Below the pieces are notes generated by a model that did not search any database, was not told the origin of the DNA, and worked only from the letters and a program-made list of their open reading frames with translations. A stretch of 37,132 bases of DNA, taken from the NCBI RefSeq assembly GCF_000374645.1, contig NZ_KB894825.1, positions 1-37,132 on the forward strand, given 5' to 3'. Source of the DNA: Arhodomonas aquaeolei DSM 8974. Lineage in GTDB: Bacteria; Pseudomonadota; Gammaproteobacteria; Nitrococcales; Nitrococcaceae. The position numbers and the translations under genes are program-made. This document shows, piece after piece, positions 15,461 to 33,332 of this stretch (position 1 is its first letter; the number at the start of each line of letters is the position of its first letter).

Positions 15461-16318
15461 TCAGACTTTCGGGGGGATCTTCCGGTTGTTGAGCCTCCTC
15501 TCGTAGTTAAGGGGTGAGTGGTAGCCGATGGCGGAGTGGCGCCGGTGTGAGTTGTACCAGCCCTCGATGAACTCGAATATCGCCGGTCGGGCCTCACCGG
15601 GATCGCGGAAACGGTGATGGGCAAGCAGCTCGCACTCGAGGGTGGCAAAGAAGCTCTCCGCCATGGCGTTGTCGTAGCAGTCCCCGACCGAGCCCATCGA
15701 GGGGCGCACGCCCGCGGTCCGGCAGCGCTCGCCGAAGGCCAGGGACGTATATTGGCACCCCTGGTCGGAGTGATGTATCACGCCCTCGGGGCGGCGCTGG
15801 ACGATGGCCATCTCCAGCGCCGCGACGACGAGCTCGGTGCGCAGGTGCGTGGCCATCGCCCAACCCACCACACGGCGGGTGCAGGCATCGAGCACCGCGG
15901 CGAGGTACAAAAAGCCCGCCCAGGTTGGGACGTAGGTGATATCGGCGACGTACACCTCATCCGGGCGCTCGGCGGCGAACTCGCGCTCCAGCAGATCCGG
16001 TGCCGGGCGTCGTTCGCCCGCGCGCCGGGTGGTCACCGTCCAGCGCCGGCGAGTCTCGCCCACCAGGCCGCGGCGGCGCATCAGTCTTGCGACACGCTTG
16101 CGGCCCACACAGCGGCCCTCATCGCGCAGCTTGGCGTGCACCCGCGGCGCCCCGTAGGTGCCCCGCGAGCGCTCATGAATCGCCTCGATGTGAGCGGTGA
16201 GCTCCTGGTCGCCGCGCTGGCGCGGCGAGCGGACCCGGGTACGCCACGCATAGTACCCGCTGGGGGAGACGCCCAGCACCCGGCACATCGTGGCAACGCG
16301 GTGGAAGGCCCGGTTCAC
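15461..16318 (-). CDS. IS3-family transposase OrfB (DDE integrase core)
   Basis: The 285-residue protein has an N-terminal HTH_21-like segment (GTYGAPRVHAKLRDEG) and an rve integrase core. The catalytic residues are Asp126 (VYVADITYV), Asp185 (IHHSDQGCQY) and Glu221 (NAMAESFFATLE), with the 35-residue spacing of IS3 enzymes. It ends with the usual YNSHRRHSAIGYHSPLNYE motif. It starts with GTG overlapping the OrfA stop as GTGA, so it may be made by coupled re-initiation rather than only as the frameshift fusion usual in this family. Its stop lies just inside the left terminal repeat. Confidence 0.95.
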   Translation of the reverse strand: MNRAFHRVATMCRVLGVSPSGYYAWRTRVRSPRQRGDQELTAHIEAIHERSRGTYGAPRVHAKLRDEGRCVGRKRVARLMRRRGLVGETRRRWTVTTRRAGERRPAPDLLEREFAAERPDEVYVADITYVPTWAGFLYLAAVLDACTRRVVGWAMATHLRTELVVAALEMAIVQRRPEGVIHHSDQGCQYTSLAFGERCRTAGVRPSMGSVGDCYDNAMAESFFATLECELLAHHRFRDPGEARPAIFEFIEGWYNSHRRHSAIGYHSPLNYERRLNNRKIPPKV

Positions 16319-17104: not shown

Positions 17105-20100
17105 ATGAAGCCACCCCGCTGGCAGGTCGTGACCGAGTCCGAGTTCCCATGGGAGCGAAGCGCCCTCGAGTATCTCCGAGACCGGCTACCGGACTACGAG
17201 CCGTTTCGCGCATGGGCCAACCTGGAGTTCATAGCGGATGACGGCAGCGTTAATGAAGTTGACGTCCTCGTCGTCTCGCGCAGTCGTATCTACCTGGTCG
17301 AGATCAAGAGCCATCCTGGGCGTATCAGCGGGGACGCCGGTACGTGGACGTGGGAGCGCGACGGCCGTAGGAGCAGCTTCGACAATCCGCTTCTGCTGGC
17401 CAACCGTAAGGCAAAGAAGCTGAAGACCCTGCTGCAATCGCAGCGCGCCTTCCGCAAAAAGGGTGGCGGGCGGGTCCCCTACATCGAAGCGGTCGTATTT
17501 CTCTCGAACCAGGACTTGCGGTGTGATCTGACCGGGACTGCCCGGGCGGGGATCTACCTACCGGACAACAAGGCAGAAACCACACAGGAAAACATCCTGG
17601 CGCTATTGCGGGGCGAGCTCGACCAGCGCTCGGCGGCGGCTATCGGTCATGGCCAGTCTCGCCAGATCAAGCAGGCGCTGGAACAGTGCGGGATAAGAAA
17701 GTCGCAGCAGCAGAATCGAGTCGGTGACTTTCGCCTGAATACGCTGATTCGTGAGACCGATCTATACCAGGACTGGGAGGCGTCCCATGTCCGGTTCGAA
17801 CGCTCGCACCGGCGAGTCCGTATCTACCCGTATGCGCTCACCACTTCCGAAACCAGCCGACGGGAGCGTCAGAAGGCGGCAGAGCGAGAGTTCCAGATTC
17901 TGGATGGGGTGAAGCACCCGGGTATCCTGCAGGTCGAGCAGTTCACGGAGCATGAGCGCGGGCCCGCGCTCGTCTTCGAGCATCCCGAGGGCGTTGAGCG
18001 ACTGGATCAGTGGCTGCCGCTCCAGCGCGATACCCTGGACGCCGGTGACCGGCTGGACCTCGTGCGCCAGATCGCCGAGACCCTAAAGTTCGCGCACGGC
18101 AATCGACTGTATCATCGCGCGCTGAGCCCCGAGTCCATCCTCGTCTACCGTGACAAGCAACGCGGGCTCGCGCTGAAGCTTTTTGACTGGCAAAGCGCCC
18201 GCCAGGGGACGGGTACAGATGGCGGCACGCGGCTCTCCATATCCGAGACGTCGGCGCCGGCCTATTGGGGAGAAAATCAGTCGGAGGCCTTCATCGCGCC
18301 GGAAGCGATCGTGGGTGCGGGTTACGACGATCAGCGCATGGATGTCTTCTCGCTGGGGTGTCTCGCCTTTTTCCTGTTCTCCGAGACACCCCCCGCGGAC
18401 GGTGCCGAGGGTCTGCGCGCCAAGCTGGAGACGGGCGATGGTCTCCGGCTTTCCGACGTCATGGATGCCGCCCCATCGGCGCTGGATGACCTCATATGCG
18501 AGGCGACTCGCCCGGAAGCGATGGACCGGCTGAGTGGTGTGGACGAATTTCTGCAGGAGCTCGAGGGCGTCGAGGAAGAACTAACCCGCCCTGACCCGGA
18601 GGATCAACCCAACCCGCTGGATGCGCGCCCCAAGGACGTGCTCGACGGCGGCTTCCAGGTACGCCGCCGTCTGGGCAAGGGCTCCACGGCCGTTGCCTTG
18701 CTCGTCACTGACCGTGAGGGGCGGGAGGGCGTGCTCAAGGTCGCCCTGGAGCCGCGCTTTAACGAGCGCGTTGAACAGGAAGGCCAGGTGCTTGCTCAGT
18801 TACGGCACCAGAACATCGTCGAACTCTTTGATCGGACGACTGTTTCCGGCCACTCCGCCTTGTTCATGGCGCGAGCTGGTACCGAGAACAAGACCGGAAC
18901 CGAGACGCTGGCCCAGCGCATTCGCGAGGACGGCAAGCTCAGCCTGGATCTGCTGCAGCGATTCGGTGACGAACTGCTCCAGGTGGCCGCGTGGCTGGAG
19001 CAGGCGGGCGTCGCTCATCGGGACATCAAGCCGGACAACATCGGTATCGGCGAGACGCCCGGCAAAAAGCTCACCCTGGTTCTATTTGACTTCTCCCTGT
19101 CCAACGCGCCACCGGAGAACATTCGCGCGGGCACGCCGCCGTACCTGGATCCCTTCCTCTCCAAGCGTCGGCCGCAACGCTGGGACCTCCATGCTGAGCG
19201 GTACGCCGCGGCCGTGACGCTCTACGAAATGGCCACTGGTGTTACCCCGTCCTGGGGGGACGGCTCCAGCGATCCGCTGTTGACTGATGAGGAGGTCTAC
19301 CTCGACACCGCGCAATTTGACGCCGCCGTGCGCGAGGGTCTGACTCGGTTTTTCCGCCAGGCGCTGGCCCGTGATCCGGCGGACCGCTTCGACACCGCCG
19401 AGGAGATGCGAAGGGCCTGGTATCGCGTCTTCGAGCACGTCGACCGCCCCACGCGCACGACCCACGACGACGACATACCGGACGTGGACGCCCTGCTGGA
19501 CGAGATGCTGCCGTACCTCGACCGCAGCACACCCATCTCGGAGCTCGGCTTGAGCGGCCGCCTTATGAATGCCCTTGGCGATCGTCTCGGCGTCAATCAG
19601 ATAGACGATCTGCTGCGCCTACCACGTATTCGCCTGTATCGAAACAAGGGCTTGGGCCAACGCACGGTTTCCCAGATCCGGCAATTGGCCGAACGCCTGC
19701 GCGAGCATTTCGAGTCAGAGGCCACCACCACCGCCGCCGACGACGACGAGGATGGCGACAGCGTCGGCGCCCCGGAATACTGGAGCCTGGACCGCCTTGT
19801 GGCTCGCGTCGTGCACAACCGCATGGAGGAAGAGGAAGCGCGCCTGCTCCGCGGCTTCCTCGGACTGGACGCCGAGGAAGGGGGCGCTGGCGGGAACGAG
19901 GGCGGCGAGCCGACAGGCGAATGGGCCGACACCCGCAACGCAGCCCGCCGGCTCGCCGTCCCCCGGCAAACGCTGGAGAGCGCTCTGGACCGGGCGCGCG
20001 AGCGATGGGCCAAGCGACAGTGGATGACGGCCCTTCGCCAGGACGTGGGAGAGCTGGTACGCCGCCACGGCGGTGTGCTCACACTGAGCGAGCTGTGTCA

Positions 20101-21334
20101 CGGGCTCGTCAGCATGCGGGGGGCGGCCAGCGACGGCGTGCGCCGGGAGCGCCGGGCCCTCGCCGTGGCGGCGGCGGCCTGCGAGGTGGAGGAGGGCCTG
20201 GAAAAGCCGCGCTTCGTTGTCTTTCGAGGCCAGCACCACACGTTTGTGTTGGCCACCGAGCACCTGGACGAAGCCTGGGCGGCCTCCGATGCCCCACGAC
20301 GCGCCCGCTATGCCGAGGCCCTCGGCGAGGCGGCGGACCGCATGGCCGCCGAGGACCCACTCCCCGCACCGCAACGGGTCATCGAGGCACTACGCACCAT
20401 CGACGCTCCCGAGCCCGAGCTGAGCGATAACCGTCTGGTCAATCTGGCCGTGGCCAGCTCCAGCACCGCCGCGTTGTCGAGTCGCCTGGAGATCTACCCG
20501 CGCGGCATGGACGCCGAGCGCGCGTTGCGCCTGGGGTACGGCGCCCTCATCGGGCCGAGCAAACTCACCGCACGCGCCATCCAGCAACGGATCGCACGAC
20601 GCTATCCGGAGGCGGAGCCGCTGCCGGATCACCCGCGTCTGGACACGCTGCTCGATCAGGTAGACGCCCAGTTGCGCTGGGACAGCCGTCAGGGGCACTA
20701 CACCGTTGCCAGCGTTCGGGGGTCGCTGACCGCCGGCGATACCACCCGCGATACGACCGCGGCCGAAAGCCCGGGCAGCGAACGCGTCACGGAGATCGAG
20801 CACAAACTCCGTCGCGTGGCAAAGGAGGGCCGCTTCCTCGCCCTGCGCATTGCGCCACGACACATGGTTCGGGCCCAGCAGCGCCTCTCCACCGGTTATG
20901 GCCTCACCCCGTACAGCCTGGAGGGCGAACTGCTGCGTGCCATGAAGGCCGTCGCTGAGGCGCGTAAGGCCCGCTGGAGCGTTGTGCTGGAAGCCGACGG
21001 GGCGGGGCCCGACGGGGCCAACTGGCCGCGCTTGCTGCAGCTTGTGGCGGAAGCCGTCCGGCGCATTACCCCGTCCGTTATCGAGGCCGATTCGCCGATC
21101 CTGATTCTCAACCCCGGATTGCTGGTCCGCTACGGCCACATGGAGCTGCTCAACCGCGTGCGCGACGCCTGTGAGCGCGGGCGGCACCCGGGCGCGGTCC
21201 TGCTGATTCCAGGCTCGAGTGCCTCGACGCTGCCGATGATCGACGACCGGGCGCTGCCCATCGTGCACACTTCCGAGTGGCTGCACGCGGACCGTCACTG
21301 GCTGAACACGCCCCCCGAAACGGTGAAGGGGTAA
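17105..21334 (+). CDS. pglW: BREX-2 Ser/Thr kinase PglW (NERD + pseudokinase + kinase)
   Basis: The 1409-residue cytosolic protein is of the usual PglW length. Residues of about 10-130 are a NERD nuclease-like domain with Asp53 and the pair Glu66-x-Lys68 (YLVEIKSH). Residues of about 235-495 form a first kinase-like domain whose catalytic loop reads YHRALSPES (HRA at 337-339) and whose metal loop reads LFDWQS, so it should be inactive. Residues of about 517-780 are an intact kinase: glycine loop LGKGSTAVAL, lysine in VLKVAL, HRDIKPDNI (Asp640), DFSLS and the APE-like region. Residues 808-870 (ISELGLSGRLMNALGDRLG... LGQRTVSQI) resemble the RNA polymerase alpha C-terminal DNA-binding fold. The C-terminal third has no family I can name. 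In Pgl systems PglW is an essential kinase; its target here is unknown. Confidence 0.92.
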   Translation: MKPPRWQVVTESEFPWERSALEYLRDRLPDYEPFRAWANLEFIADDGSVNEVDVLVVSRSRIYLVEIKSHPGRISGDAGTWTWERDGRRSSFDNPLLLANRKAKKLKTLLQSQRAFRKKGGGRVPYIEAVVFLSNQDLRCDLTGTARAGIYLPDNKAETTQENILALLRGELDQRSAAAIGHGQSRQIKQALEQCGIRKSQQQNRVGDFRLNTLIRETDLYQDWEASHVRFERSHRRVRIYPYALTTSETSRRERQKAAEREFQILDGVKHPGILQVEQFTEHERGPALVFEHPEGVERLDQWLPLQRDTLDAGDRLDLVRQIAETLKFAHGNRLYHRALSPESILVYRDKQRGLALKLFDWQSARQGTGTDGGTRLSISETSAPAYWGENQSEAFIAPEAIVGAGYDDQRMDVFSLGCLAFFLFSETPPADGAEGLRAKLETGDGLRLSDVMDAAPSALDDLICEATRPEAMDRLSGVDEFLQELEGVEEELTRPDPEDQPNPLDARPKDVLDGGFQVRRRLGKGSTAVALLVTDREGREGVLKVALEPRFNERVEQEGQVLAQLRHQNIVELFDRTTVSGHSALFMARAGTENKTGTETLAQRIREDGKLSLDLLQRFGDELLQVAAWLEQAGVAHRDIKPDNIGIGETPGKKLTLVLFDFSLSNAPPENIRAGTPPYLDPFLSKRRPQRWDLHAERYAAAVTLYEMATGVTPSWGDGSSDPLLTDEEVYLDTAQFDAAVREGLTRFFRQALARDPADRFDTAEEMRRAWYRVFEHVDRPTRTTHDDDIPDVDALLDEMLPYLDRSTPISELGLSGRLMNALGDRLGVNQIDDLLRLPRIRLYRNKGLGQRTVSQIRQLAERLREHFESEATTTAADDDEDGDSVGAPEYWSLDRLVARVVHNRMEEEEARLLRGFLGLDAEEGGAGGNEGGEPTGEWADTRNAARRLAVPRQTLESALDRARERWAKRQWMTALRQDVGELVRRHGGVLTLSELCHGLVSMRGAASDGVRRERRALAVAAAACEVEEGLEKPRFVVFRGQHHTFVLATEHLDEAWAASDAPRRARYAEALGEAADRMAAEDPLPAPQRVIEALRTIDAPEPELSDNRLVNLAVASSSTAALSSRLEIYPRGMDAERALRLGYGALIGPSKLTARAIQQRIARRYPEAEPLPDHPRLDTLLDQVDAQLRWDSRQGHYTVASVRGSLTAGDTTRDTTAAESPGSERVTEIEHKLRRVAKEGRFLALRIAPRHMVRAQQRLSTGYGLTPYSLEGELLRAMKAVAEARKARWSVVLEADGAGPDGANWPRLLQLVAEAVRRITPSVIEADSPILILNPGLLVRYGHMELLNRVRDACERGRHPGAVLLIPGSSASTLPMIDDRALPIVHTSEWLHADRHWLNTPPETVKG

Positions 21335-21597: not shown

Positions 21598-24500
21598 ATG
21601 GGGGTAGAACTGAACGCGCTGCGTCGGGACCTGCAGCAGCAGGTGGCGAACCTGACCGACGACCTGCGTGAGCGCAGCGAGGCCGTGGCGTCGATGCGGG
21701 ATCGCCTGCAGGCGGAGTACCGCGAGGCGCGTGACAGCGGTCGCACGGCCGCAACGTACCAGGACTGGCGGGAGGACAACCTCACCCAGAGCGCGGTCGC
21801 CTGGGTGCTGGCGGGCGTTTTCGTGCGCTTCCTGGAGGACAACCAGCTCCTGGCCGAGGCGTTCATCACAGGCCCCGGTGAGCGCGCGCGCCAGGCCCGC
21901 GAGCGGCGGGACGGCTACTTCCGCGAGCACCCCACGGACACGGACCGGGACTACTTCCTCAACGTCTTCGAGACCGTCGGAGAGCTGCCCGCCATGCGCG
22001 AGCTGTTCGACCGGGAACACAACCCGCTCTGGCAACTCACACCGTCCGGCGACGCCGCCCGCGGGCTCTGGGAATTCTGGCGTCGGGTGGTCCCGGAGAC
22101 GGGCGAGCTGGTCCACGACTTCACCGATCCGGACTGGGACACGCGCTTCCTCGGCGATCTGTACGAGCAGCTCTCCGAGCGGGCGCGTAAGCAGTTCGCC
22201 CTGCTGCAGACGCCGGAGTTCGTCGAGGAATTCATCCTGGATCGCACGCTCGACCCGGCCATCGAGGACTTCGGGTTGGAGGCGGTGCGGCTGATCGACC
22301 CCACCTGTGGCTCGGGTCACTTCCTCATCGGTGCGTTCCATCGCCTGCTCCAGCGCTGGCACCGCCAGGCACCGGCCATGACCCCGCGCGAGCGCATTCA
22401 GAAAGCCCTGCGCGCCGTGGCGGGCGTGGACATCAACCCCTTCGCCGTCAGCATCGCGCGCTTCCGCCTGCTCATCGCGGCCCTGCAGGCCGAGGGGATA
22501 GGAAAGGTCAAGGAGGCGCCTGCCTACCAATTCGAGTTGGCCGCGGGTGACAGCCTGCTACATGGCCTGCCATTGAACGAGCTGGCGCTGGACCATGCCG
22601 GATCCATGCGGCGCCATCCGAGTTTCGGCCAGGCCTACCGGTCCGAGGATATCGAGGCGCTGAACCGAATCCTGGGGAGTCACTACCACGCGGTGGTCGG
22701 CAATCCACCGTACATCACGGTCAAGGACAAGGCGCAGAACGCACTCTACCGCCGCTTCTACGGCGAGGTCTGCCACCGCCAATATGCGTTGACCGTGCCG
22801 TTCACGCAGCGCTTCTTCAGTCTCGCGTTGCCGGGCGGTGACCGCCAGCCCGCCGGCCACACCGGCATGATCATCGCGGACTCCTTCATGAAGCGGGAGT
22901 TCGGCAAGAAGCTGGTGGAGCAGTTCCTGCCGCGGGTGAACCTGACGCATGTCATCCATACGGCTGGGGCCTATATCCCGGGGCACGGCACACCGACCGT
23001 CATCCTCTTTGGCAGCAACCGGGCACCGACGGCGCCCACGGTGCGGACAGTCATGGGGATACGAGGGGAGCCGGGCACACCGTCTGATCCAGCGAGGGGC
23101 CAGGTGTGGAGCGCTATCCTCGATCAAGTCGATCAGCCGGGCAGCGAAAGTGACTTCGTGTCGGTAGCCGATCTCGAAAGGCCTACCTTTGCGGCTCACC
23201 CATGGTCGTTGGGCGGCGGCAGTATTACTGCGGTGAAGGAGCATGTGGAAGGTAGCGCCCAATCCACAATGCAGGAGTGGGCAACCTCCATTGGATTTGT
23301 TTGCATCACCAAGAGTGATGAGGTGTTTGTTCAGGAACCTGACGTCTTCAGGCGTCAGGGTGTCCCTATGAATCTTGTCCGTACCTTCGGGATCGGCGAG
23401 GACATACGGGATTGGGCCTTCTACGAGGTCTGGTCGGCGCTGTTTCCCTATACACCGTCCGTTGAGGTAATTGAGCCGCAGGCGATTGAAGGGGCCTTTC
23501 CGTTCATGTGGCCGTATCGGACGACCTTGTTCGATCGCAAAGTCTTTGGTGGTAAGACCTATCGCGATGTTGGCAAGGCCTGGTACGAGTACGGCCAGAT
23601 TCCCGCGGATCGCTTTCAGATCCCAAGATCCATCACCTTCGCCTTCGTCGCCACCCACAACCACTTCGTCCTCGACCGCGGCGGCAAGGTGTTCAATCGT
23701 TCGGCGCCGGTGATCAAGCTCCCGGCCGAGGCCAGCGAGGACGACCATCTGGCGCTGCTGGGCCTGCTGAACAGCTCGGTGGCCTGCTTCTGGATGAAGC
23801 AGGTGTTTCACAGCAAGGGAGCTGGCGGCGGAAGCCGAGTGGCGGCGGGTTACTCGGCAATGGGCGACGAGAACTGGGAAAGTCATTACGAGTTCACCGG
23901 CACCGGCCTGAAGCAGTTCCCAGTCACCGAGACCAAGCCCCTGGACCTCGCCCGGCAGCTCGACGATCTCGCCACCCGGCGGCAGGCCGTCCTGCCGGAC
24001 GCGCTGAGGGACCGCCTGCCGCTCTCCCGCGATGAGCTGGACGCCTACCGCGCGCAGGCTGAGGACCTGCTCGGGCGCATGATCGCGCTGCAGGAGGAAG
24101 TGGACTGGCGATGCTACCGGCTCTACGGCGTGCTCGATCGGGACTTCGAGTACTGCGATGCGGCCGGTCGGCCACAGTCGCCCCCGGCGCTGCGCCTGGG
24201 CGAACGGGCCTTCGAGATCGCCATGGCGCGGCGCATGGCCGCTGGCAAGCTGGAGACGAGCTGGTTTCGTCGCCATGGCTCCACGCCCATCACGGAGCTC
24301 CCAACGGACTGGCCCGAGGATTACCGCGCCCTGGTCGAGGCGCGCATCGAGCACATCCAGTCGGACCGCTACATCGGCCTGCTGGAGCAGCCCGAGCACA
24401 AGCGCCGCTGGAACTTGGATAGCTGGGCAGAGACGGAAGAGGCCGCGCTGCGCCGCTGGCTGCTGGACCGATTGGAGGCGGGGCGTTACTGGGGCGAGCC

Positions 24501-25287
24501 GGCCCTGCAGACCACCAACGATCTGGCGGACCGGGCGGTGCTGGATGTTGACTTCATGGCGGTTGCGGAGCTCTACGTCGGCCGCAGCGGCGTGGATGTG
24601 AAGAAGCTGGTGGCGGAGCTGGTGGCGGACGAGGCCGTACCACTGCTGTCGGTGCTGCGCTACAAGGCGGCCGGGCAGCGCAAGCGTCAGGACTGGGAGG
24701 CCACCTGGGCGCTCCAGCGGCGCGAGGACGCCATCGATGCGGAGGTGGCCGCCGAGCTGACACAGGGCGATGACGAGTCGGATGCGGACTTCGCCCAGCG
24801 GCTGAAGCGCGCGCAGGATGAACGCAAACGCACCGAGCTGGGCACCATCCCGGTGCCGCCGAAGTACAACAAGGGGGATTTTCTGGACGGCACCTACTGG
24901 CGGCTGCGCGGGGCGCTGGACGTGCCCAAGGAGCGCTTCGTCAGCCTGCCCCATTGCAGCCCGGACGGTGACAACAGCCTGCTGGTCGGGTGGGCGGGCT
25001 GGGACAGCCTGCAGCGGATGCAGGCGGTCGCGGCGTGTTACACGGACCGCCGCCAGCAGGCCGGCTGGCCCGCGGAGCGCCTGGTGCCATTTCTCGCGGC
25101 GATGGATGAGCTGCTGCCCTGGGTCCAGCAGTGGCACAGCACGCCGGACCCGGAGTTCGGCCGGATGGACGAGTTCTTCGAGACCTACCTGACCGGTCAG
25201 CTCCAGGAGCTGGGCCTGACGCGGGATGCCATCCGCCAGTGGCAACCGCCGCAGACACGTCGGCGGGGCCGCAAGGCCCAGAGCTGA
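21598..25287 (+). CDS. pglX: BREX-2 adenine-specific DNA methyltransferase PglX
   Basis: The 1229-residue enzyme starts at the ATG at 21598 behind AGAAGGGG. It is expected to methylate adenine N6 in an asymmetric host motif, marking self DNA and taking part in phage blocking. The AdoMet-binding motif I is DPTCGSGHFL (Asp234) and the catalytic motif IV is NPPY (369-372). The N-terminal helical part reads LTQSAVAWVLAGVFVRFLEDNQLL. The middle region (about residues 535-680), which in such enzymes recognises the target, has strikingly low G+C. The C-terminal half carries helical regions with RALVEARIEHIQSDRYIGLLE and KYNKGDFLDGTYWRLRGALD, conserved in BREX-2 PglX as I recall. There are no long G tracts of the kind that cause phase variation of Streptomyces pglX. 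Confidence 0.95.
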   Translation: MGVELNALRRDLQQQVANLTDDLRERSEAVASMRDRLQAEYREARDSGRTAATYQDWREDNLTQSAVAWVLAGVFVRFLEDNQLLAEAFITGPGERARQARERRDGYFREHPTDTDRDYFLNVFETVGELPAMRELFDREHNPLWQLTPSGDAARGLWEFWRRVVPETGELVHDFTDPDWDTRFLGDLYEQLSERARKQFALLQTPEFVEEFILDRTLDPAIEDFGLEAVRLIDPTCGSGHFLIGAFHRLLQRWHRQAPAMTPRERIQKALRAVAGVDINPFAVSIARFRLLIAALQAEGIGKVKEAPAYQFELAAGDSLLHGLPLNELALDHAGSMRRHPSFGQAYRSEDIEALNRILGSHYHAVVGNPPYITVKDKAQNALYRRFYGEVCHRQYALTVPFTQRFFSLALPGGDRQPAGHTGMIIADSFMKREFGKKLVEQFLPRVNLTHVIHTAGAYIPGHGTPTVILFGSNRAPTAPTVRTVMGIRGEPGTPSDPARGQVWSAILDQVDQPGSESDFVSVADLERPTFAAHPWSLGGGSITAVKEHVEGSAQSTMQEWATSIGFVCITKSDEVFVQEPDVFRRQGVPMNLVRTFGIGEDIRDWAFYEVWSALFPYTPSVEVIEPQAIEGAFPFMWPYRTTLFDRKVFGGKTYRDVGKAWYEYGQIPADRFQIPRSITFAFVATHNHFVLDRGGKVFNRSAPVIKLPAEASEDDHLALLGLLNSSVACFWMKQVFHSKGAGGGSRVAAGYSAMGDENWESHYEFTGTGLKQFPVTETKPLDLARQLDDLATRRQAVLPDALRDRLPLSRDELDAYRAQAEDLLGRMIALQEEVDWRCYRLYGVLDRDFEYCDAAGRPQSPPALRLGERAFEIAMARRMAAGKLETSWFRRHGSTPITELPTDWPEDYRALVEARIEHIQSDRYIGLLEQPEHKRRWNLDSWAETEEAALRRWLLDRLEAGRYWGEPALQTTNDLADRAVLDVDFMAVAELYVGRSGVDVKKLVAELVADEAVPLLSVLRYKAAGQRKRQDWEATWALQRREDAIDAEVAAELTQGDDESDADFAQRLKRAQDERKRTELGTIPVPPKYNKGDFLDGTYWRLRGALDVPKERFVSLPHCSPDGDNSLLVGWAGWDSLQRMQAVAACYTDRRQQAGWPAERLVPFLAAMDELLPWVQQWHSTPDPEFGRMDEFFETYLTGQLQELGLTRDAIRQWQPPQTRRRGRKAQS

Positions 25288-25315
25288 AGCGGCTGGCTTA
25301 CTGCTAGACTACAGT

Positions 25316-25332
25316 CGAATACAGAGTATTCG
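25316..25332. promoter_or_regulatory. Perfect palindrome upstream of the antitoxin gene (probable operator)
   Basis: CGAATAC (25316-25322) and GTATTCG (25326-25332) form an inverted repeat around AGA. It lies 20 bases before the antitoxin start and 29 bases after the pglX stop. Ribbon-helix-helix antitoxins bind such palindromes to repress their own operon. A weak -10-like TAGACT lies at 25305-25310. Confidence 0.6.
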
Positions 25333-25351
25333 GATATCAGCGGGGGCCGTG

Positions 25352-25624
25352 ATGGGTGTCACCACCGTTCGATTCCAGCCGGAGGTGGAGCAGGGGCTGG
25401 AGGCCATGGCTCAGCGGCTCCAGCGCAGCAAGGGCTGGCTGATCAATCAGGCCATGGCGGAATACCTGGAGCGCCATCAGCGCGAGCAGGCGCGCTGGCA
25501 GGCGACGCTGGACGCCGTGGAGTCCGCCACCCAGGGGCGCGTCGCCGATGGGGAGGCGGTGCACAACTGGCTGCGCAGTTGGGGGCAGACGGACGAGCTG
25601 CCGCCGCCCAAGGCGGGTGAGTGA
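25352..25624 (+). CDS. Ribbon-helix-helix antitoxin of a RelBE/ParDE-type module
   Basis: The 90-residue protein starts at the ATG at 25352; a longer open frame upstream overlaps pglX and is a shadow. The N-terminal MGVTTVRFQPEVEQGLEAMA is a beta strand plus helix, and QRSKGWLINQAMAEYLERH is the second helix of a CopG/RHH DNA-binding fold. The rest (ATLDAVESATQGRVADGEAV, HNWLRSWGQT) is the toxin-wrapping tail seen in antitoxins that pair with RelE/ParE proteins. It probably neutralises the next gene's product and represses the pair through the palindrome upstream. The stop overlaps the toxin start as GTGA. Confidence 0.88.
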   Translation: MGVTTVRFQPEVEQGLEAMAQRLQRSKGWLINQAMAEYLERHQREQARWQATLDAVESATQGRVADGEAVHNWLRSWGQTDELPPPKAGE

Positions 25625-25908
25625 GGCGGGTCTATGCTGCGGAGGCCATTGAGGACCTCAGCCGCCTGCGGGCCTTCATCGCCGAGCATGACCCGAATGC
25701 GGCCGGTCGAGTGGCGGCAGAGTTGCTGGAACGCCTGGAGACGTTGCCGCGGTTTCCGCGCATGGGGCGGCCCGTCGCTGCTGCGCCGGAGCCGGAGACC
25801 GTTCGTGACATGGTCTTCGGCCGCTATGTCGTGCGCTACTCCGTGCATCGGGAGACGCTGGTGATCCTGCGGGTCTGGCACGAGCTTGAGGGGCGGGGCG
25901 GGTCATGA
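25621..25908 (+). CDS. RelE/ParE-family toxin
   Basis: The 95-residue protein starts at GTG 25621, overlapping the antitoxin stop. The fold pattern is that of the RelE/ParE superfamily: AEAIEDLSRLRAFIAEHDP (helix pair), LETLPRFPRMGRPV (the conserved P-x-x-G-R-x-V turn), VRDMVFGRYVVRYSVHRETL and VILRVWHELEGR. Members inhibit either translation by cutting mRNA on the ribosome or DNA gyrase; the sequence does not decide which. R-x-(Y/V)-x-V-x-Y near the C terminus is present. The gene sits inside the BREX operon, where loss of the locus would free the toxin. Confidence 0.88.
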   Translation: MRRVYAAEAIEDLSRLRAFIAEHDPNAAGRVAAELLERLETLPRFPRMGRPVAAAPEPETVRDMVFGRYVVRYSVHRETLVILRVWHELEGRGGS

Positions 25909-25957
25909 GGCGGATAGGCCCGGCAAGCCTGCGACGACGGAATTTGCGGGTGTGCCC

Positions 25958-26938
25958 ATGCAACTGAGCTTTGCCCTCACGCAGCTCGATGGCTATGTTG
26001 ACAGCCGCCAGGCCCCACCGATGATGCCGCCGGGGCGTGAGCTGGCCTGGTTCACGCTGCGTGGCTTGGCGGTGGGCGAGCGCGCCGAGAATCAGGACAA
26101 CCTGGTGGTGGTGGATGCTGCGGGCTTTGGTGTCTGCCTGCGTGGGGGCGCACCAACCACGATCAACCGGGACGACTGGCCGGCGGGGCGGCTACGCATC
26201 GCGGTACTGGATGGCATGGGGGGCCACGACAACGGCCGCCAAGTGGCCGAGGACGCGGCGGATGCCATTCGGCGGTTGCCGGTGTATGCGTCGCGCGAGG
26301 CGCTGGTCAACGGGCTGGATGCCCTGCACGATCAACTCCACGCGGATTGGGGTGCCGGTGTTCGCTCGCCAGGTTGTACGCTGACCCTGCTGGAGGTGGT
26401 GGCGGAAGATACCGCGTGGCTCTACCACGTGGGTGACAGCCGGCTCTATGAGCTGGGCTCCGGGGTGGGTCCGCGCTATCTGACCCTGGACCATGCGCCG
26501 TCGACGCGCGCCATGCTCGCTGGCGCGATAGACGTCGAGGCTTGGCAGCGGCGGATACACAGGCAGCCGGAGAGCCGCATCAGCCAGGCGTTTGCCATGG
26601 GTAATACCTTCGAGGACGAGCGCGGTCGCTTGTCGCCGGGTTTACGGCACCTCACGGCGGAGGATCTGCCGCTGTCGCTGGCGGAGCGGGCCGACTGCCG
26701 GACCATAACGCTTCGGCCCGGCGGGCGATACCTGCTAAGCACGGATGGCCTGTGGGCCGTGTCCGATCCGGCGTCGCTGGTGGACCGGCACTGGAAGAAG
26801 CTAGCAGGCGACGCACGACAGCCAGACGCGCTGCTGCGCGGGCTGCTGGACGTACTGCAACAGGCCGCCCAACCGGGCGAGTCGGACAACACGACGGCGC
26901 TGCTGCTGCAGGTGGCGCCTTCTAAAGGGCAGGGGTGA
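25958..26938 (+). CDS. PP2C-family Ser/Thr protein phosphatase within the BREX locus
   Basis: The 326-residue protein starts at the ATG at 25958 (in-frame GTG at 25952 and a TTG at 25886 inside the toxin gene are alternatives; none has a good ribosome-binding site). All metal-binding acidic residues of the PPM/PP2C fold are present: Asp47 in AENQDN, Asp85 in VLDGMGGH, Asp263 in LLSTDGLW and Asp310 in GESDNTT. GCTLTL and YHVGDSRLYELG are also intact, so it should be an active Mn/Mg-dependent phosphatase. It is cytosolic and has no extra domain. It is the natural opponent of the PglW kinase, and probably reverses PglW phosphorylation of itself or another BREX protein (inference). Its stop overlaps the upstream GTG start option of pglY. 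Confidence 0.92.
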   Translation: MQLSFALTQLDGYVDSRQAPPMMPPGRELAWFTLRGLAVGERAENQDNLVVVDAAGFGVCLRGGAPTTINRDDWPAGRLRIAVLDGMGGHDNGRQVAEDAADAIRRLPVYASREALVNGLDALHDQLHADWGAGVRSPGCTLTLLEVVAEDTAWLYHVGDSRLYELGSGVGPRYLTLDHAPSTRAMLAGAIDVEAWQRRIHRQPESRISQAFAMGNTFEDERGRLSPGLRHLTAEDLPLSLAERADCRTITLRPGGRYLLSTDGLWAVSDPASLVDRHWKKLAGDARQPDALLRGLLDVLQQAAQPGESDNTTALLLQVAPSKGQG

Positions 26939-26949
26939 CGGGACGTGCC

Positions 26950-29900
26950 ATGACAAAGATCGCCGAGATCATCGATATTCCCCACGAGGTGCACCAGGGG
27001 GACTTCGTGCTGCGACTGACCGAGGGCGTGCAGGATCCGCAGGGCACGCTGCGCAGCTATGTTGTGACGCCGGAGCTGCGGCGCTGCTTCGATCAGGCCA
27101 TGACGCTGGTCAAGAGCGCCCTCGACGCGCCGGCAAGCAAGGGCGCCTACCTTCACGGCAGCTTTGGCAGCGGTAAGAGCCATTTCATGGCGGTGCTGAC
27201 CTTGCTGCTGCAGGGCAGTGCGGACGCGCGTGCTATCCCGGAGCTGGCCAACGTCATCCAGCGGCATAACGAGTGGACCCAGAACCACAATGTGCTAGTG
27301 GTTCCGTATCACATGATCGGCGCCCGCAGCATGGAGGCGGCGATCCTCGGCCACTACGTGACCTACATCCGCCGCCTCCATCCGGACGCGCCCACGCCAC
27401 CGGTGTACCGCAGCGAAGGCCTGTTCAAGGATGCCCGCGGCCTGCGGGAGCGGATGGGCGACGAGGCCTTCTTCGCCGGTCTGGGCCAGCAGGGCGGCGG
27501 TGATGATGGCTGGGGCGACCTCGCCGGTGGCTGGGACGCGGCCACGTTCGAGTCAGCCATGGCCGCGCCGCCGGAGAGCGAGCTGCGTGGGCAGCTGATC
27601 ACCGACCTGGTGGACAGCTACTTCAGCCACGCCGGCCAGCTTGCGGGTGATGAAACCCAGGGGCTGGTGGACCTGGATAAGGGGCTGGCCGTGATCGCGC
27701 GGCACGCGCAGTCCCTGGGCTATGACGGGCTGGTGCTGTTCCTCGACGAGCTGATCCTGTGGCTGGCGAGCCATGCGTCCGATGACGAGTTCATCAACCG
27801 CGAGGGCCAGAAGGTGGCCAAGCTTGTGGAGTCCATGGACGCCTCTCGCCCCATCCCCATCATCAGTTTCATCGCCCGGCAGCGCGACCTCCGCGAGCTG
27901 GTCAGTGAGCACATGGGTGGCATCGAGCAGATGCGCTTCTCGGACGTGCTTAACTGGTGGGAGGCGCGTTTCGACAAGATCACGCTGGAGGACCGCAACC
28001 TCCCCGCCATCGTCGAAAAGCGGCTGCTGCGGCCCAAGTCCGAGGACGCGCGGGCGCAGCTCGATCAGGCCTTCGAGAAGGCCGCGCAGGTGCGGGAAGG
28101 CGTGCTCCAGACCCTGCTGACCCGCGACTACACCAAGGAGCAGTTCCGGCAGGTCTACCCGTTCAGCCCGGTGCTGGTGAAGGCCCTGGTGGCGTTGTCG
28201 TCACTGCTTCAGCGCGAGCGCACCGCCTTGAAGCTCATGCTCCAGCTCTTGGTGGACCAGCGCGATCGCTTGGAGCTGGGCGACATCGTGCCCGTGGGTG
28301 ACCTGTACGACGTTCTCGCCAGCGGCGATGAGCCATTCTCCCAGGCAATGCGTGGGCATTTCGACAACGCACGGCGTTTGTACCGGACACGCCTGCTACC
28401 GGTCCTCGCGGATCACTACGGCACCACCGTGGAGGCGCTGGAGGATGGTCAGCTGCCCGAGGGCCAAGAAAAGGCGTTTCGGGCTGACGATCGGTTGGTC
28501 AAAACGCTGCTTCTCGCGGCGCTGGCGGAGGGCGTGGAGGAACTCGCCGCGATGACCCCGGCGCGGTTGGCCACGCTGAACCACGGCAGCGTGCGGTCCC
28601 CCATCCCGGGCCAGGAGGCCACGGCGGTGCTCCAGAAGTGTCGCCGCTGGGCGAGCCAGATCGGGGAAATCAAGGTCAGCGATGAGGGTACCGACGCCAC
28701 CGTAGCGCTCCAACTCGTCGGTGTGGATACCGATGGCATTCTCGAGAACGCGCTGGCGTCGGACACGCCGGGCGCCCGTGTTCAGCTCGTGCGGGACATG
28801 ATTCGCGCCGACCTGGCCTTGAAGGACACGGACGACATGTACCGTTCCCCCGTGCTGGATTTCGACTGGCGCGGAACGCGACGCCGATGCGAAGTGGAGA
28901 TCATCAAGGCCAAGGAGTTGTCACTCGAGGGATTCCGCCCGCGGGAGACGGATTGGAAAGTGGTCATCAGCCTGCCCATCGGCGATGCGGTGGCGAACGA
29001 TCGGGCGCAGGTCCAGCAGTTCCAGAGCATCTACGGCGAGTGTTCGACGCTGGTGTGGTTGCCCTCGGCGTTCAGCGCCAAGGCGAATGATGATCTGGCA
29101 CGCTTGACGGTGCTGGAGCATGTCCTGTCCGGCCAGCGGCTCGCGAACTATGGGAGCCACCTGTCGCAGGCCCAGCGCGATCAGGCGCGGGTGCTGTTGA
29201 CCAATCAACGCGACCAGCTGCGACAGCGGGTTCGCTCCAATCTGCTGACGGCCTATGGCATCAGCCGGATCAACGAGGATGCGGTCGACGCGGGGCAGGA
29301 TCTGGATGATCACTTCCTCTCACTGTCCCAGGGCATTCACTTGCAGCCGCCGGTGGGGGCGAACTTCCTGGAGAATCTCCAGCATCTGCTGGATCAAATG
29401 CTGGCGGCACATTACCCGGATCATCCGCGGTTCACGGTAGAAGTCCGTCGTGCGGCGCTCAAGAAAGTGTTGGCCGTCGTCAGCCGTGTGGCGGGCCTAC
29501 CTGACGGGCGCGTGGAGGTGGCCCGGGAAGACCGGGAGGTCATGAACGGCATCGCAGTGCCGCTGCACCTCGGCCAGATGGGTGAGACGCACTTCGTCCT
29601 GGGCGACTACTGGCGGGACACGTTCAACCGTCGGATCAACAGCGAGGATGTCCAGCAGCTCACCGTAGGCCGCCTGCGTCATTGGTTGCAGACCGAGCAT
29701 GCCATGGGGTTGCCGGGAGACGTCGAGAACCTGGTGATCCTGGCGTTCGCCGAGCAGACGAACCGCCGCTTCTACCTGCATGGGGGTGCCGTCGAACCGC
29801 GGCTTGACCAGGTGGACGATCAGCTCGAACTACGCGAGCAGCCGTTGCCGGCGCAGCAGGACTGGAATGAGGCACTGGAGCGCGCTGGTCACCTGTTTGG

Positions 29901-30609
29901 CCTAGCGATGGATTCGCGCCAGCTCAACGCCACGAACGTCGGCCGTTTCGTGGATGAGCTGCGCACGCATGCGAATACCCGGCGAGACGCGGTTGAGCGC
30001 CTCAACCAGTCGCTAGAGAAACGCATCGCCGCACTCGGCCTCGATCCGGGCAGTTCGCAGCGGCGACGTAGCGTTGAGGCCGCGCGTACCATTCTCGAAC
30101 GCATCACCCAGGCGGAGGAGAACGAGGTGATCCGGGCCCTTGCCCAGACCGACATCCCGGGGTCGACGACGGCAGTCGGCGCTTGTATCGGCAAGGCGGG
30201 CGAGCTGGCGGAGACACTGGAGCAGTCCGGGGCCTGGGATCTGTTCCAGCGGCTTGCCGAATTGCCCGCTGAATGGACCGCCGAAGCGGAATCCATCATG
30301 AGCCCGGTTCACGATGCGCTGACGCGTGATGAACATGTCCTGCCGCTAACGCCCGCGGTCGATGAGGCGCAGCGATCGGCCCTGGATTTGATGACGCGCG
30401 CTGCGCGTGGCGGCGGCACACCATCGCCGACATCGCGCCCCCCCAACGCGCCCAATCGGCGAGCGGTGAAGCGGGATCGCCAGCAGGTGTCCGCGTCCGA
30501 GGTCGATGAGGTCTTCCGGGCGCTCAAGGCGGAGCTGAGCGGCGTCTCGGCGAGTGCCACGATCGAGGTCTCCTGGACGATATTCGACGAGTCCGGCCAT
30601 GGCGACTAG
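26950..30609 (+). CDS. pglY: BREX-2 ATPase PglY
   Basis: The 1219-residue protein starts at the ATG at 26950 (MTKIAEIIDIPHEVHQGDFV); a GTG at 26935 overlapping the PP2C stop (GTGA) would add five residues and couple translation. The P-loop is HGSFGSGKSHF (residues 70-77 core) and Walker B is LVLFLDELILW (Asp266-Glu267). FIARQRDLRELV and VYPFSPVLVKALVALSS follow as in large P-loop proteins of DUF6079/BrxC type. The C-terminal half is helical with no named domain. PglY is thought to be the ATP-driven counterpart of type 1 BrxC, working with PglZ and PglX. Its end overlaps pglZ by eleven bases. Confidence 0.93.
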   Translation: MTKIAEIIDIPHEVHQGDFVLRLTEGVQDPQGTLRSYVVTPELRRCFDQAMTLVKSALDAPASKGAYLHGSFGSGKSHFMAVLTLLLQGSADARAIPELANVIQRHNEWTQNHNVLVVPYHMIGARSMEAAILGHYVTYIRRLHPDAPTPPVYRSEGLFKDARGLRERMGDEAFFAGLGQQGGGDDGWGDLAGGWDAATFESAMAAPPESELRGQLITDLVDSYFSHAGQLAGDETQGLVDLDKGLAVIARHAQSLGYDGLVLFLDELILWLASHASDDEFINREGQKVAKLVESMDASRPIPIISFIARQRDLRELVSEHMGGIEQMRFSDVLNWWEARFDKITLEDRNLPAIVEKRLLRPKSEDARAQLDQAFEKAAQVREGVLQTLLTRDYTKEQFRQVYPFSPVLVKALVALSSLLQRERTALKLMLQLLVDQRDRLELGDIVPVGDLYDVLASGDEPFSQAMRGHFDNARRLYRTRLLPVLADHYGTTVEALEDGQLPEGQEKAFRADDRLVKTLLLAALAEGVEELAAMTPARLATLNHGSVRSPIPGQEATAVLQKCRRWASQIGEIKVSDEGTDATVALQLVGVDTDGILENALASDTPGARVQLVRDMIRADLALKDTDDMYRSPVLDFDWRGTRRRCEVEIIKAKELSLEGFRPRETDWKVVISLPIGDAVANDRAQVQQFQSIYGECSTLVWLPSAFSAKANDDLARLTVLEHVLSGQRLANYGSHLSQAQRDQARVLLTNQRDQLRQRVRSNLLTAYGISRINEDAVDAGQDLDDHFLSLSQGIHLQPPVGANFLENLQHLLDQMLAAHYPDHPRFTVEVRRAALKKVLAVVSRVAGLPDGRVEVAREDREVMNGIAVPLHLGQMGETHFVLGDYWRDTFNRRINSEDVQQLTVGRLRHWLQTEHAMGLPGDVENLVILAFAEQTNRRFYLHGGAVEPRLDQVDDQLELREQPLPAQQDWNEALERAGHLFGLAMDSRQLNATNVGRFVDELRTHANTRRDAVERLNQSLEKRIAALGLDPGSSQRRRSVEAARTILERITQAEENEVIRALAQTDIPGSTTAVGACIGKAGELAETLEQSGAWDLFQRLAELPAEWTAEAESIMSPVHDALTRDEHVLPLTPAVDEAQRSALDLMTRAARGGGTPSPTSRPPNAPNRRAVKRDRQQVSASEVDEVFRALKAELSGVSASATIEVSWTIFDESGHGD

Positions 30610-33328
30610 GGCGAGCCCTTCGACTGCGCCGTCGAGACAGCTCACGCCCGACCTCATTCGGGCGCGAGCGGAGCAGGTCATCGCGCGACACGGCGTAGAA
30701 ACCGTGGGGATAAGCGCCACCGGCGAATGGGCGGGCGAGGACGTCATTCAGCTCCAGGGGCAGCGGTGGCCGGTTCGGCGGTGTGATTCGGTGCTCGAGC
30801 TCGGTCTGGCCCTTAACGAACTCAATGCACATGGGCAACACGGTGTGGTGTTGAGCCGTCTGCATGAGGCCGACTTGCCCGAGGACATGCGGGCGCGCCT
30901 TTGTGGTGGAAGGCTGTACGGGCTTGATCCGTGGGACAGCGTGCTCGCGCTCTTCGCGGCGGACCGACTGGATCCAAGGATTCCCCGTGCGCCGCGGCTC
31001 GCTGAGCTGCTGATCAGTAACGTCCCGCCGGAGGGGTATCCGTCCTGTCGCGCTCGATTTCTCGATGCGGATACCGTTTGGCGCTCGCTGTTTCGTCGCT
31101 ACCTGGGGTTCGACCAGGACCTACTGGACGCCAAGGCGGTGATGAGGTGGCTCCTCTCTGAAGGCGCTGCTGACGCATGGCGACGCATGGATGACGAGGT
31201 CCGACAGCTTTTTCGAGGTCGCATCGAGCAACGAGCCGGCAGGCTCGGGCTGCACTTGCTGGACGTGGCGGAGAGCGAGTACGCGGAATATGTGCTCGCT
31301 ATCGGGCTGGTGTGCGAGCTGATCTTTGACGAATCCGGCTCGATCACGGCTGACCGGCAGCTTGCGGCGGGCCGGCTGGAGCGCTATCTGGCCGGCCAGG
31401 CGCTGGCGGGCGCGGCGGGCCGGCGGTGGTTCGCGCTGGCGCGAGATCTGCTCGGTGACCTGGACGAGGCGTCACGACAGACCCACCGGGCGCGCGCTCA
31501 GGCCATTCTCGATGAGCTGCAGATCAGTGACGCAGGCGGGGAGAGTCTGGTCCTGCAGCGCGGATATGAGCACCGTCTGCAGCGTTATGCAGACGCGCTT
31601 ACCAACGCCCTTGATGGGCGCGCTGAATGCTCGGACGTCGGGGCGGCATTGCAGGCGGTCCGGTCCCATGAGCTTAGTCCGGGCGATGAGGGGCGCCTGG
31701 AGCGGCTCGATGTTGCCCTGCGATTGTTGCGTTACCTCAATGTTGGCGGTACACGCGGCGCCAATCGCAGTCTTGAGCAACTGGCGGTTAGCCATCGCGA
31801 CGACGCTAGCTTTGTGGACTGGGGGCGCCGGCTTCTCCTTGGCGGTGATGCCCATGCGGGCGTCAGCGCCGCATTGGAGCGATTGCTCACGCAGTTGCGT
31901 CAGCACCGCGAGACGTTGAACAAGCGGTTTGCGGAGGCCTTGGCGAACTGGGATCGGACTTCTTTCGCCAATGGGCGCTTTGTTGGCCTTGAGGCGGTGC
32001 TGGATGAGCTCGTGGCACCCTTGGCTCGGCAGTCACCCGTGCTTTTTCTCGTGATGGACGGTATGGATTACGGGGCCTACCGCGAGCTGGAAGCGGACTT
32101 ATCAGCGGACGGTTGGATCAGTTATGGGCCAGCCGGTAGCGGGCGAACGGTGTCGGCGCTGAGTACGTTACCGAGCGTTACGCGCGTGGCCCGGGCGAGT
32201 CTCTTCAGCGGCAGACTCTGTCAGGGCCAGTCCGACTTCGAGCGCAATTCATTCGCGAACCATCAGGGCTTGCTGCACGCCATTGGGTCCGGGAAGTCCA
32301 AGCCGACCGTCTACCACAAGGCGGCGCTCAGCGAGGGCGGTGGGGAGTTGGCCAGTGACGTTCGCGAGGCCATTGCCAACCCCAAAAAGCGCCTCTTAGG
32401 TGTTGTGGTCAATGCCATCGACGATCACCTGGACAAATCCGATCAGTTGCGCCTGCGCTGGAGTCGCGACCAGTTCCGACAGCTCGACGCCTTACTGGAG
32501 TCTGCGCGGGTCAGCGGCAGGACCGTGGTGCTCACCAGCGACCACGGTCACGTGATGGATTGGCACAGTCATCAACCGGTTCAGGCGCTCGCCGGTCGTT
32601 GGCGTGATTCCGGAACCGAGCCCGTGGAGGGCGAAATCCGAGTCGCCAATCCCGCCGTCCGCGAGGCGCTCGGAGTCGACAGCGTTATCGTGCCATGGAG
32701 CGAGCGTATTCGTTACGTTCGACGGAGCAATGGATACCATGGCGGTGCAACGCCTCAAGAGATTGTCGTCCCTGTTGGCGTCTTCCGCTTCATGGGCAGT
32801 GAGAACGCAGTTGAGCTTTCCGGCTGGGACGCGCTGCCGGCGCAGGAACCAGCCTGGTGGGCTCAGGCGGCGGAGCCTGTTCAGCGGGCGAACGCGGCCG
32901 AGCCTGCGGCCACTTTGAAAAGCGCGAAGTTGCGTGGAGGCGGCGAAACAACACGCCAGGCGAGTCTGTTCGAGCAACTGGACACCACCTACGGGCCCGA
33001 GCAGGACCAAGGCGAACGGTTAGTTGAGCAGTTGCTCGCGTCGCCGACCTATCACCGCCAGCGAAAGGCCGCTGGCCGCATCGCGCCGAAGGAATCGGTC
33101 CTGAGGCAGTTCCTCCATGCTCTTTTGCAGGCCGATGGCCGCCTGAGTCGCAAGCGACTCGCGGCCGCCATGGACATACCGGAGCTGCGCGTGCGCTCTC
33201 AGTTTGCTGCAATGCAGAAATTGCTGAACGTCGATGGCTATGCGGTGGTCGGCGAGGATGCGTCGGGCGCCGAAATCGTGCTCGACACGGCGCTGCTACG
33301 AAAGCAGTTCGAGATCTCCGAGGGCTGA
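30599..33328 (+). CDS. pglZ: BREX-2 alkaline-phosphatase-superfamily protein PglZ
   Basis: The 909-residue product starts at the ATG at 30599, overlapping the end of pglY by eleven bases; the frame upstream is a shadow of pglY. The PglZ domain spans about residues 470-750. Its metal-site motifs are LFLVMDGMDYGAY (Asp487) and TSDHGHVMDWHSH (Asp648, His649, His651), typical of the alkaline phosphatase superfamily. VSALSTLPSVTRVARASLFSG marks the conserved serine/threonine-rich turn. PglZ is the one protein shared by nearly all BREX types, and metal-dependent nuclease or phosphatase activity has been proposed. The C-terminal part (ESVLRQFLHALLQADGRLSR) looks like a small winged-helix domain. Only four bases separate it from brxD. 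Confidence 0.94.
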   Translation: MATRASPSTAPSRQLTPDLIRARAEQVIARHGVETVGISATGEWAGEDVIQLQGQRWPVRRCDSVLELGLALNELNAHGQHGVVLSRLHEADLPEDMRARLCGGRLYGLDPWDSVLALFAADRLDPRIPRAPRLAELLISNVPPEGYPSCRARFLDADTVWRSLFRRYLGFDQDLLDAKAVMRWLLSEGAADAWRRMDDEVRQLFRGRIEQRAGRLGLHLLDVAESEYAEYVLAIGLVCELIFDESGSITADRQLAAGRLERYLAGQALAGAAGRRWFALARDLLGDLDEASRQTHRARAQAILDELQISDAGGESLVLQRGYEHRLQRYADALTNALDGRAECSDVGAALQAVRSHELSPGDEGRLERLDVALRLLRYLNVGGTRGANRSLEQLAVSHRDDASFVDWGRRLLLGGDAHAGVSAALERLLTQLRQHRETLNKRFAEALANWDRTSFANGRFVGLEAVLDELVAPLARQSPVLFLVMDGMDYGAYRELEADLSADGWISYGPAGSGRTVSALSTLPSVTRVARASLFSGRLCQGQSDFERNSFANHQGLLHAIGSGKSKPTVYHKAALSEGGGELASDVREAIANPKKRLLGVVVNAIDDHLDKSDQLRLRWSRDQFRQLDALLESARVSGRTVVLTSDHGHVMDWHSHQPVQALAGRWRDSGTEPVEGEIRVANPAVREALGVDSVIVPWSERIRYVRRSNGYHGGATPQEIVVPVGVFRFMGSENAVELSGWDALPAQEPAWWAQAAEPVQRANAAEPAATLKSAKLRGGGETTRQASLFEQLDTTYGPEQDQGERLVEQLLASPTYHRQRKAAGRIAPKESVLRQFLHALLQADGRLSRKRLAAAMDIPELRVRSQFAAMQKLLNVDGYAVVGEDASGAEIVLDTALLRKQFEISEG

Positions 33329-33332
33329 GCCT

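Follow-up and report, generated by a model that had tools for sequence, protein, structure and literature searches.

The type 2 BREX operon of Arhodomonas aquaeolei DSM 8974 harbours, between pglX and pglY, two overlapping genes which, as judged from their sequences, are a type II toxin–antitoxin (TA) module of the CopA_SO–ParE_SO kind, with predicted toxicity and neutralisation. The explanation that we regard as probable is that a working, self-repressed module of this kind occupies a slot for additional genes at the pglX–pglY junction and serves as insurance should the operon be lost or shut down.

The window, that is, the whole stretch of 37,132 nucleotides that was analysed, contains a complete type 2 BREX core on the forward strand (PglW, PglX, PglY, PglZ, BrxD and BrxHI, all with strong PADLOC matches; Table 1). 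Three extra genes lie between PglX and PglY, one for a ribbon-helix-helix (RHH) protein, one for a member of the ParE family and one for a PP2C-like phosphatase, and the PADLOC assignments of the flanking genes agree with the preliminary description, which had placed the pair within the operon at this junction. Upstream of the operon, a transposase gene with rve and HTH_21 domains (15461-16318, reverse strand) is found about 0.8 kb from pglW, together with a PAS-GGDEF protein (10964-12520, reverse strand) and an ArsP-type permease (12310-13491, forward strand), whose frames overlap, so that one of the two starts is probably misplaced. Two adjacent large open frames, at 2837-6268 and 6265-9156, contain many WG repeats (PF14903) and overlap by 4 bases.

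Table 1. Features of the operon, the gene pair and the associated candidate signals (positions in the window)
Feature	Position	Strand	Basis and remarks
pglW, type 2 BREX kinase protein	17105..21334	+	PADLOC PDLC02512, E=0
pglX, adenine methyltransferase, upstream neighbour	21598..25287	+	PADLOC PDLC02529, E=0
Probable operator of three boxes at 10-bp intervals, AGACTAC-AGT-CGAATAC-AGA-GTATTCG	25306..25332	.	12/18 to (GTANTAC N3)x3
TACAGT, weak -10-like candidate	25310..25315	+	By eye, in the place of TACAAT in relatives
Perfect 7-3-7 palindrome CGAATAC-AGA-GTATTCG (boxes 2 and 3)	25316..25332	.	Sequence reading
RHH (CopG-type) antitoxin, CopA_SO-like	25352..25624	+	PF01402 (RHH_1), 20.9 bits, cut-off 20.5; 7etr_A E=1.1e-9; 90 aa, ATG start at 25352
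ParE-family toxin, ParE_SO-like	25621..25908	+	PF05016 (ParE_toxin), 59.9 bits, cut-off 23; 7etr_C E=5.8e-7; 95 aa, GTG start
PP2C-type phosphatase	25886..26938	+	Start TTG 25886, GTG 25952 or ATG 25958; PP2C/SpoIIE below Pfam cut-offs
Sigma-70-like site TTGACA-16-GATGAT in phosphatase gene	25998..26025	+	10/12, consensus match only; shuffle mean 0.0
pglY/brxC	26935..30609	+	PDLC02488, E=0
pglZ	30554..33328	+	PDLC02565
brxD	33234..34655	+	PDLC02494
brxHI	34652..36751	+	PDLC02503

The antitoxin and toxin genes, which both appear intact, share a GTGA overlap at 25621-25624; the earlier reading of the pair as an RHH antitoxin and a RelE/ParE toxin overlapping by GTGA is borne out by the coordinates and by Pfam. 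Its family assignment of the toxin also held and could be refined, from RelE/ParE in general to Pfam ParE_toxin and, through the match to a protein of solved structure, to the CopA_SO–ParE_SO kind. The best solved-structure match of the two proteins is one and the same complex, PDB entry 7ETR, whose CopG-family regulator chain is matched by the antitoxin and whose RelE/StbE-family toxin chain is matched by the toxin. We take 7ETR to be the ParE_SO–CopA_SO complex, and the residue numbers given in the relevant part of PMC8706911 (His91 and Lys93) fit its toxin chain.

According to part of the same source, ParE_SO and CopA_SO are encoded by the Shewanella oneidensis prophage CP4So, where the pair maintains the excised prophage and the toxin stops growth; His91 of ParE_SO is essential for toxicity, a change of Arg18 has a moderate effect, Glu86 of CopA_SO is needed for neutralisation, and gyrase is put forward as a hypothetical target of the toxin (PMC8706911). 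In the printed alignment against 7ETR, His87 of the A. aquaeolei toxin aligns with ParE_SO His91, while its Arg17 is the counterpart of Arg18 and Glu82 of the antitoxin that of CopA_SO Glu86. A Trp-His pair is kept in 16 of 16 toxin relatives with an alignment covering that position, a count that omits two relatives whose alignment rows end early (L214 and L224) and one with no toxin match (L225). As regards the catalytic residues that set RelE/YoeB-type mRNases apart from ParE-type gyrase poisons, Gly49 and Leu89 of the toxin occupy the positions of ParE_SO Gly50 and Lys93, at which YoeB has Glu46 and His83. The likeness to ParE_SO–CopA_SO consists in matches to both chains, in candidate operator boxes of 7 bp with 3-bp spacers and in the retention of the key His, Arg and Glu positions; on the other hand, the pair is only modestly similar, its candidate boxes are diverged and it is located in a BREX operon instead of a prophage.

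Other comparisons of the two proteins were less specific. The PHROGs matches were to an Arc-like repressor and to families with no assigned function, and neither protein was matched by PADLOC. A single-sequence fold model was of low confidence (pLDDT 64.6) and gave no Foldseek match at E <= 0.001, with ParE toxins at the top of the list and unrelated Ragulator chains among them. In overall and third-position G+C content the toxin gene is close to pglX and pglY and the antitoxin gene is slightly higher, so that the composition of the pair, being close to that of the operon, does not clearly point to a recent acquisition.

A perfect palindrome before the antitoxin start, reported earlier, is exact at its position (Table 1), ending 19 bases before the ATG; the corresponding distance is 20 bases in two relatives (L164 and L208). 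The 3.96-Mb host genome has no second exact copy of it, and eight further places differ from it at two positions. Taken alone, the palindrome is only mildly unusual and does not constitute strong evidence: when the 64-base spacer was dinucleotide-shuffled 5000 times, 78 of the shuffled sequences held a palindrome with 7-base arms and a loop of 0-6, and the whole window contains 45 of this type. The 17-bp palindrome by itself was rejected as proof of an operator, given these shuffles and at least 120 stretches in genome_contigs that match the pattern exactly.

A comparison with the known operator is more informative. CopA_SO binds 5'-GTANTAC(N)3GTANTAC-3', both repeats being required, and its hold on the DNA is weakened when the toxin binds, as stated in part of PMC8706911. 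The palindrome of the window shares this 7-3-7 layout; its inner half-sites (TAC...GTA) are kept and its outer ones changed. For scoring, the 100 bases preceding the antitoxin gene were used, both for the window and for 19 relatives with at least 42% identity and a fetched locus (L164 and L208-L225); the operator counts leave out relatives without a fetched locus, such as a second copy in G220, and those lacking a tblastn RHH match (L229-L232 and L234-L236). Of the 19 relatives, 18 have the two-box motif at 10/12 or better, scores that no more than 39 of 1000 shuffles attain; the exception, L224, has no motif. The window scores 8/12, which is equalled in 162 of 1000 shuffles, and so the two-box motif does not stand out there.

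When a third box, in phase at a distance of 10 bp, is added, the same 18 of 19 relatives score at least 13/18 (at most 11 of 1000 shuffles), with a best register that varies among them, and the window scores 12/18 (8 of 1000 shuffles), a value attained at no second place in it. The third box was chosen after the relatives had been inspected, and the three-box score therefore counts as support and not as an independent test. Among four more distant relatives (L226, L227, L228 and L233), three have the motif at no more than 15 of 1000 shuffles and L228 does not. The predicted operator is thus probably the three-box, 27-bp array, longer than the 17-bp palindrome. The earlier proposal that the palindrome is the operator of the pair stands in so far as it picked out likely operator boxes; it is the extent that has been revised. 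By these scores, the predicted operator of the window is more diverged than those of the relatives.

A scan of the 100 upstream bases gave no convincing sigma-70 promoter at the operator, the best score being 6/12, compared with 6-10 in 17 relatives. Inspection by eye revealed a TACAAT -10-like hexamer in six relatives (L211, L212, L213, L215, L216 and L220), and the weak candidate in the window that takes its place was not picked by the scan of the upstream region. The preliminary description had held that a strong terminator between the toxin and phosphatase genes would speak against its reading; a scan of 25000-26100 gave no terminator-like site and a single promoter-like one, the better-scoring sigma-70-like site within the phosphatase gene (Table 1). 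A TTG start would give the phosphatase gene an overlap of 23 bases with the toxin gene, while the GTG and ATG starts would leave gaps of 43 and 49 bases, respectively.

The phosphatase itself gives a Stp1 match of 43.2 bits, below the cut-off of that family, and carries ENQDN, DGMGGH, GDSR, STDGL and SDNTT, which we take to be typical PP2C motifs. Matches to it occur in 106 of 369 genomes, the host's own included. As a known BREX part the gene was rejected, since three better relatives (L167-L169, 38-43% identity) have no PglX, PglY or PglZ in about 19 kb. Weak matches to PglW kinase regions are found near the phosphatase relative in L167 and L168, and the phosphatase, which is also located in the slot, could oppose the PglW kinase.

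Relatives of the RHH protein are present in 66 of the 369 genomes of the class and PglY in 5 of 369, both occurring on one contig in the window's own genome only; in G200 and G361 they are on separate contigs. A BREX-specific TA family was accordingly rejected, as RHH relatives are found in genomes without a PglY match (E <= 1e-20) or away from the PglY contig. The 66 genomes include the host. Among the 19 relatives with at least 42% identity and a fetched locus, the toxin adjoins the RHH gene in 18. Toxin matches occur in 1578 plasmid records, two at 60-80% identity and 1576 below 60%, and in 7 of 23 genomes of the host's family, its own included, the others being at most 42% identical; no relative of either the toxin or PglY was confirmed in viral_contigs.

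Two plasmid relatives (L164 and L165) were checked for BREX genes. The pair on plasmid p_unnamed1 of Halomonas sp. PA16-9 (L164) resembles that of the window in identity (60% for the RHH protein and 64% for the toxin), in gene order and in having three boxes, but differs from it in that no BREX gene is matched in 27.8 kb, with only about 7.5 kb of this on the side where the record stops. Pfam ParE_toxin matches are found in 13 of 18 type 2 BREX genomes or records, the host's own included and G510, with its PglY remnant, left out; a ParE gene within the stretch from PglW to BrxHI is found in this locus only, and it is the sole ParE_toxin match of the host genome. Since the relatives that could be placed lie outside BREX, the pair appears to be a general TA module that has settled in a BREX operon, and with no ParE found in the core of any other BREX locus examined nothing shows selection for the combination.

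The pglX–pglY junction was compared with that of 18 other type 2 BREX loci (L185-L202), comprising six of the seven PglY-matching plasmid records and twelve loci from genomes. The seventh plasmid record (NZ_CP021355.1), in which 21% of PglY is covered, was left out, and a PglY search in the family of G455 and the orders of G397, G196 and G200 gave no new BREX genome. Gaps were measured between neighbouring core-gene open frames, each extended to its limits, and the counts for this junction exclude L194 (no pglX match), L201 (a contig without a pglX match, in which a UvrD-like helicase gene directly precedes pglY) and L202 (a PglY remnant). Extra genes are present in 8 of the 15 other loci: an AAA/AbiEii-like ATPase and a hypothetical protein in L185; a FitA-like RHH protein, a hypothetical, a ParA-like and a weakly AAA-like protein in L186; two unknowns in L187; an unknown, a ParA-like and a weakly AAA-like protein in L188; and HEPN and MNT genes in L195, L196, L197 and L200. 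In a further locus, L189, the gap measures 493 bases and no gene is annotated in it, but the gene table is incomplete; the remaining six, including the nearest relative L191 (57% PglY), hold nothing gene-sized. Counting this locus, the junction is readable in 16 type 2 BREX loci, and the RHH–ParE pair is found in one of them.

Like the RHH–ParE pair, the HEPN and MNT genes form a two-gene TA-like module at this junction; they differ from it in that the proteins are unrelated and in that the HEPN gene comes first in all four loci. Pfam confirms the HEPN domain in L195 and L196 and the nucleotidyltransferase in L195 and L200, and the remaining assignments rest on similarity, the HEPN proteins being 43.5-68% identical and the MNT proteins having been identified by eye. 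The four genomes belong to one order, and so may reflect a single acquisition. In HEPN–MNT TA pairs the MNT gene is almost always first, according to part of PMC3710099, and because of the contrary order the pairs of these loci are graded as TA-like at most. In L197 and L200 pglX is matched at its 3' end only, yet the HEPN–MNT pair and pglY remain.

Reading frames are also present at the pglW–pglX junction, in 5 of 13 loci (L185, L186, L189, L192 and L198), among them an RHH–PemK pair in L186, of which PemK is Pfam-confirmed and the RHH protein is not. No gap above 0 bases was measured at the Y–Z, Z–D and D–HI junctions (0/15, 0/13 and 0/11, respectively). On the Thiodictyon plasmid pTs417 (L186 and L237), a ParD–ParE pair lies just outside the operon, divergent from pglW, while a FitA-like RHH gene follows pglX, which is annotated in two pieces. 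The comparison suggests that the pglX–pglY junction is a cargo slot in which add-on or insurance genes gather. Among the loci measured, entry of accessory genes is restricted to the 5' half of the operon (W–X–Y) and spares the Y–Z–D–HI block.

Toxin-like genes in such operons have precedents. In 2013, HEPN genes were reported from within Pgl operons and interpreted as possible devices for cell suicide (PMC3710099, in part). A 2026 survey, which counts 1309 taxa with type 2 BREX, describes in part of its text numerous nucleases that serve as effectors inside BREX operons and also notes HEPN–MNT fusions (PMC12839542). The pair studied here resembles both in being an extra toxin-like effector within the core operon with a proposed back-up role, and differs in that those effectors are, in the parts of the two sources concerned, nucleases. 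The words ParE, PP2C and RHH are absent from the main text of PMC12839542; RelE/ParE toxins are the topic of a 2025 paper (PMC11980606, in part). In the open-licence BREX and Pgl literature, titles and abstract openings among the matches listed name neither an RHH–ParE pair nor a PP2C gene between pglX and pglY. Type II TA pairs and toxin-like genes in BREX operons are therefore known, while their combination at this junction and the slot comparison are new in the literature searched.

If the pair behaves like its family, antitoxin and toxin would be produced together, RHH dimers would fill the boxes and repress transcription, and the antitoxin would hold the toxin. Loss of the operon or arrest of its transcription would let the labile antitoxin vanish first, and the freed ParE-type toxin would then arrest the cell, probably through gyrase poisoning. 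That such a module probably insures the operon is suggested by the gene pair, its families and functional residues, the operator-type boxes, the lack of a terminator in the downstream scan and the variable cargo found elsewhere at the junction, as well as by the single ParE_toxin match of the host; the maintenance of the excised prophage by ParE_SO–CopA_SO offers a precedent by analogy (PMC8706911, in part). Against it stand the nearest BREX locus, which has no pair, the G+C content, which hardly differs from that of the operon, a two-box score no better than chance, the weak promoter, the lack of ParE in the core of any other BREX locus examined and the low-confidence fold model with its Foldseek result. 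A mobile TA module that settled in a tolerant gap as a neutral passenger with no role for BREX is possible though unlikely: toxin relatives occur in many plasmid records and RHH relatives in the class, and the pair is found in a single locus and is lacking from the nearest BREX locus, whereas the intactness of both genes and the lack of another ParE_toxin match in the host argue against mere carriage.

Two other explanations overlap with insurance of the operon, and the likelihoods given here are not meant as shares of a whole. In one, a phage that blocks host transcription or BREX would cause release of the toxin and halt the infected cell, with BREX acting first and ParE second. The location within a defence operon points this way, as do the unrelated HEPN–MNT pairs that 4 of 15 loci carry between pglX and pglY and the HEPN, Schlafen and other effectors of Pgl and BREX operons proposed as suicide back-up in parts of PMC3710099 and PMC12839542; such an abortive role is nevertheless unlikely, given that the placed relatives outside BREX indicate no dedicated defence link, that there is no known phage trigger, that PADLOC matches neither protein and that the HEPN-first order departs from the MNT-first norm (PMC3710099, in part). 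In the other, which we consider doubtful, the RHH protein on its boxes would act as an internal promoter switch or as a roadblock to read-through, setting the level of PP2C–PglY–PglZ–BrxD–BrxHI relative to PglW–PglX. A predicted operator within the operon, the lack of a terminator in the scan and a phosphatase frame that overlaps or closely trails the toxin are consistent with it, and Streptomyces PglX is toxic without PglZ (PMC4365076, in part), so that, by analogy, balance across a module between both genes could matter. It is weakened by the absence of a further operator copy in the window, by the weak promoter at the operator, by the promoter-like site within the phosphatase gene, which is beyond the reach of the boxes, and by loci with no gene whatever at this junction. 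A combination of the two, in which plentiful antitoxin on the boxes restrains PP2C–PglY–PglZ–BrxD–BrxHI until phage shut-off and antitoxin decay free a gyrase-type toxin and derepress this effector half, with the gap as a docking site for unrelated TA modules (RHH–ParE and HEPN–MNT), is very unlikely; if true, one RHH protein would couple suicide back-up to BREX activation.

To our knowledge, the retention, silencing and back-up of type 2 BREX operons are poorly known. A TA pair with a recognisable candidate operator at the boundary between pglX and pglY–pglZ provides a small, concrete test case, and the pattern of cargo, confined to the 5' half of the operon in the loci measured and including unrelated TA-like modules, can be tested at large scale.
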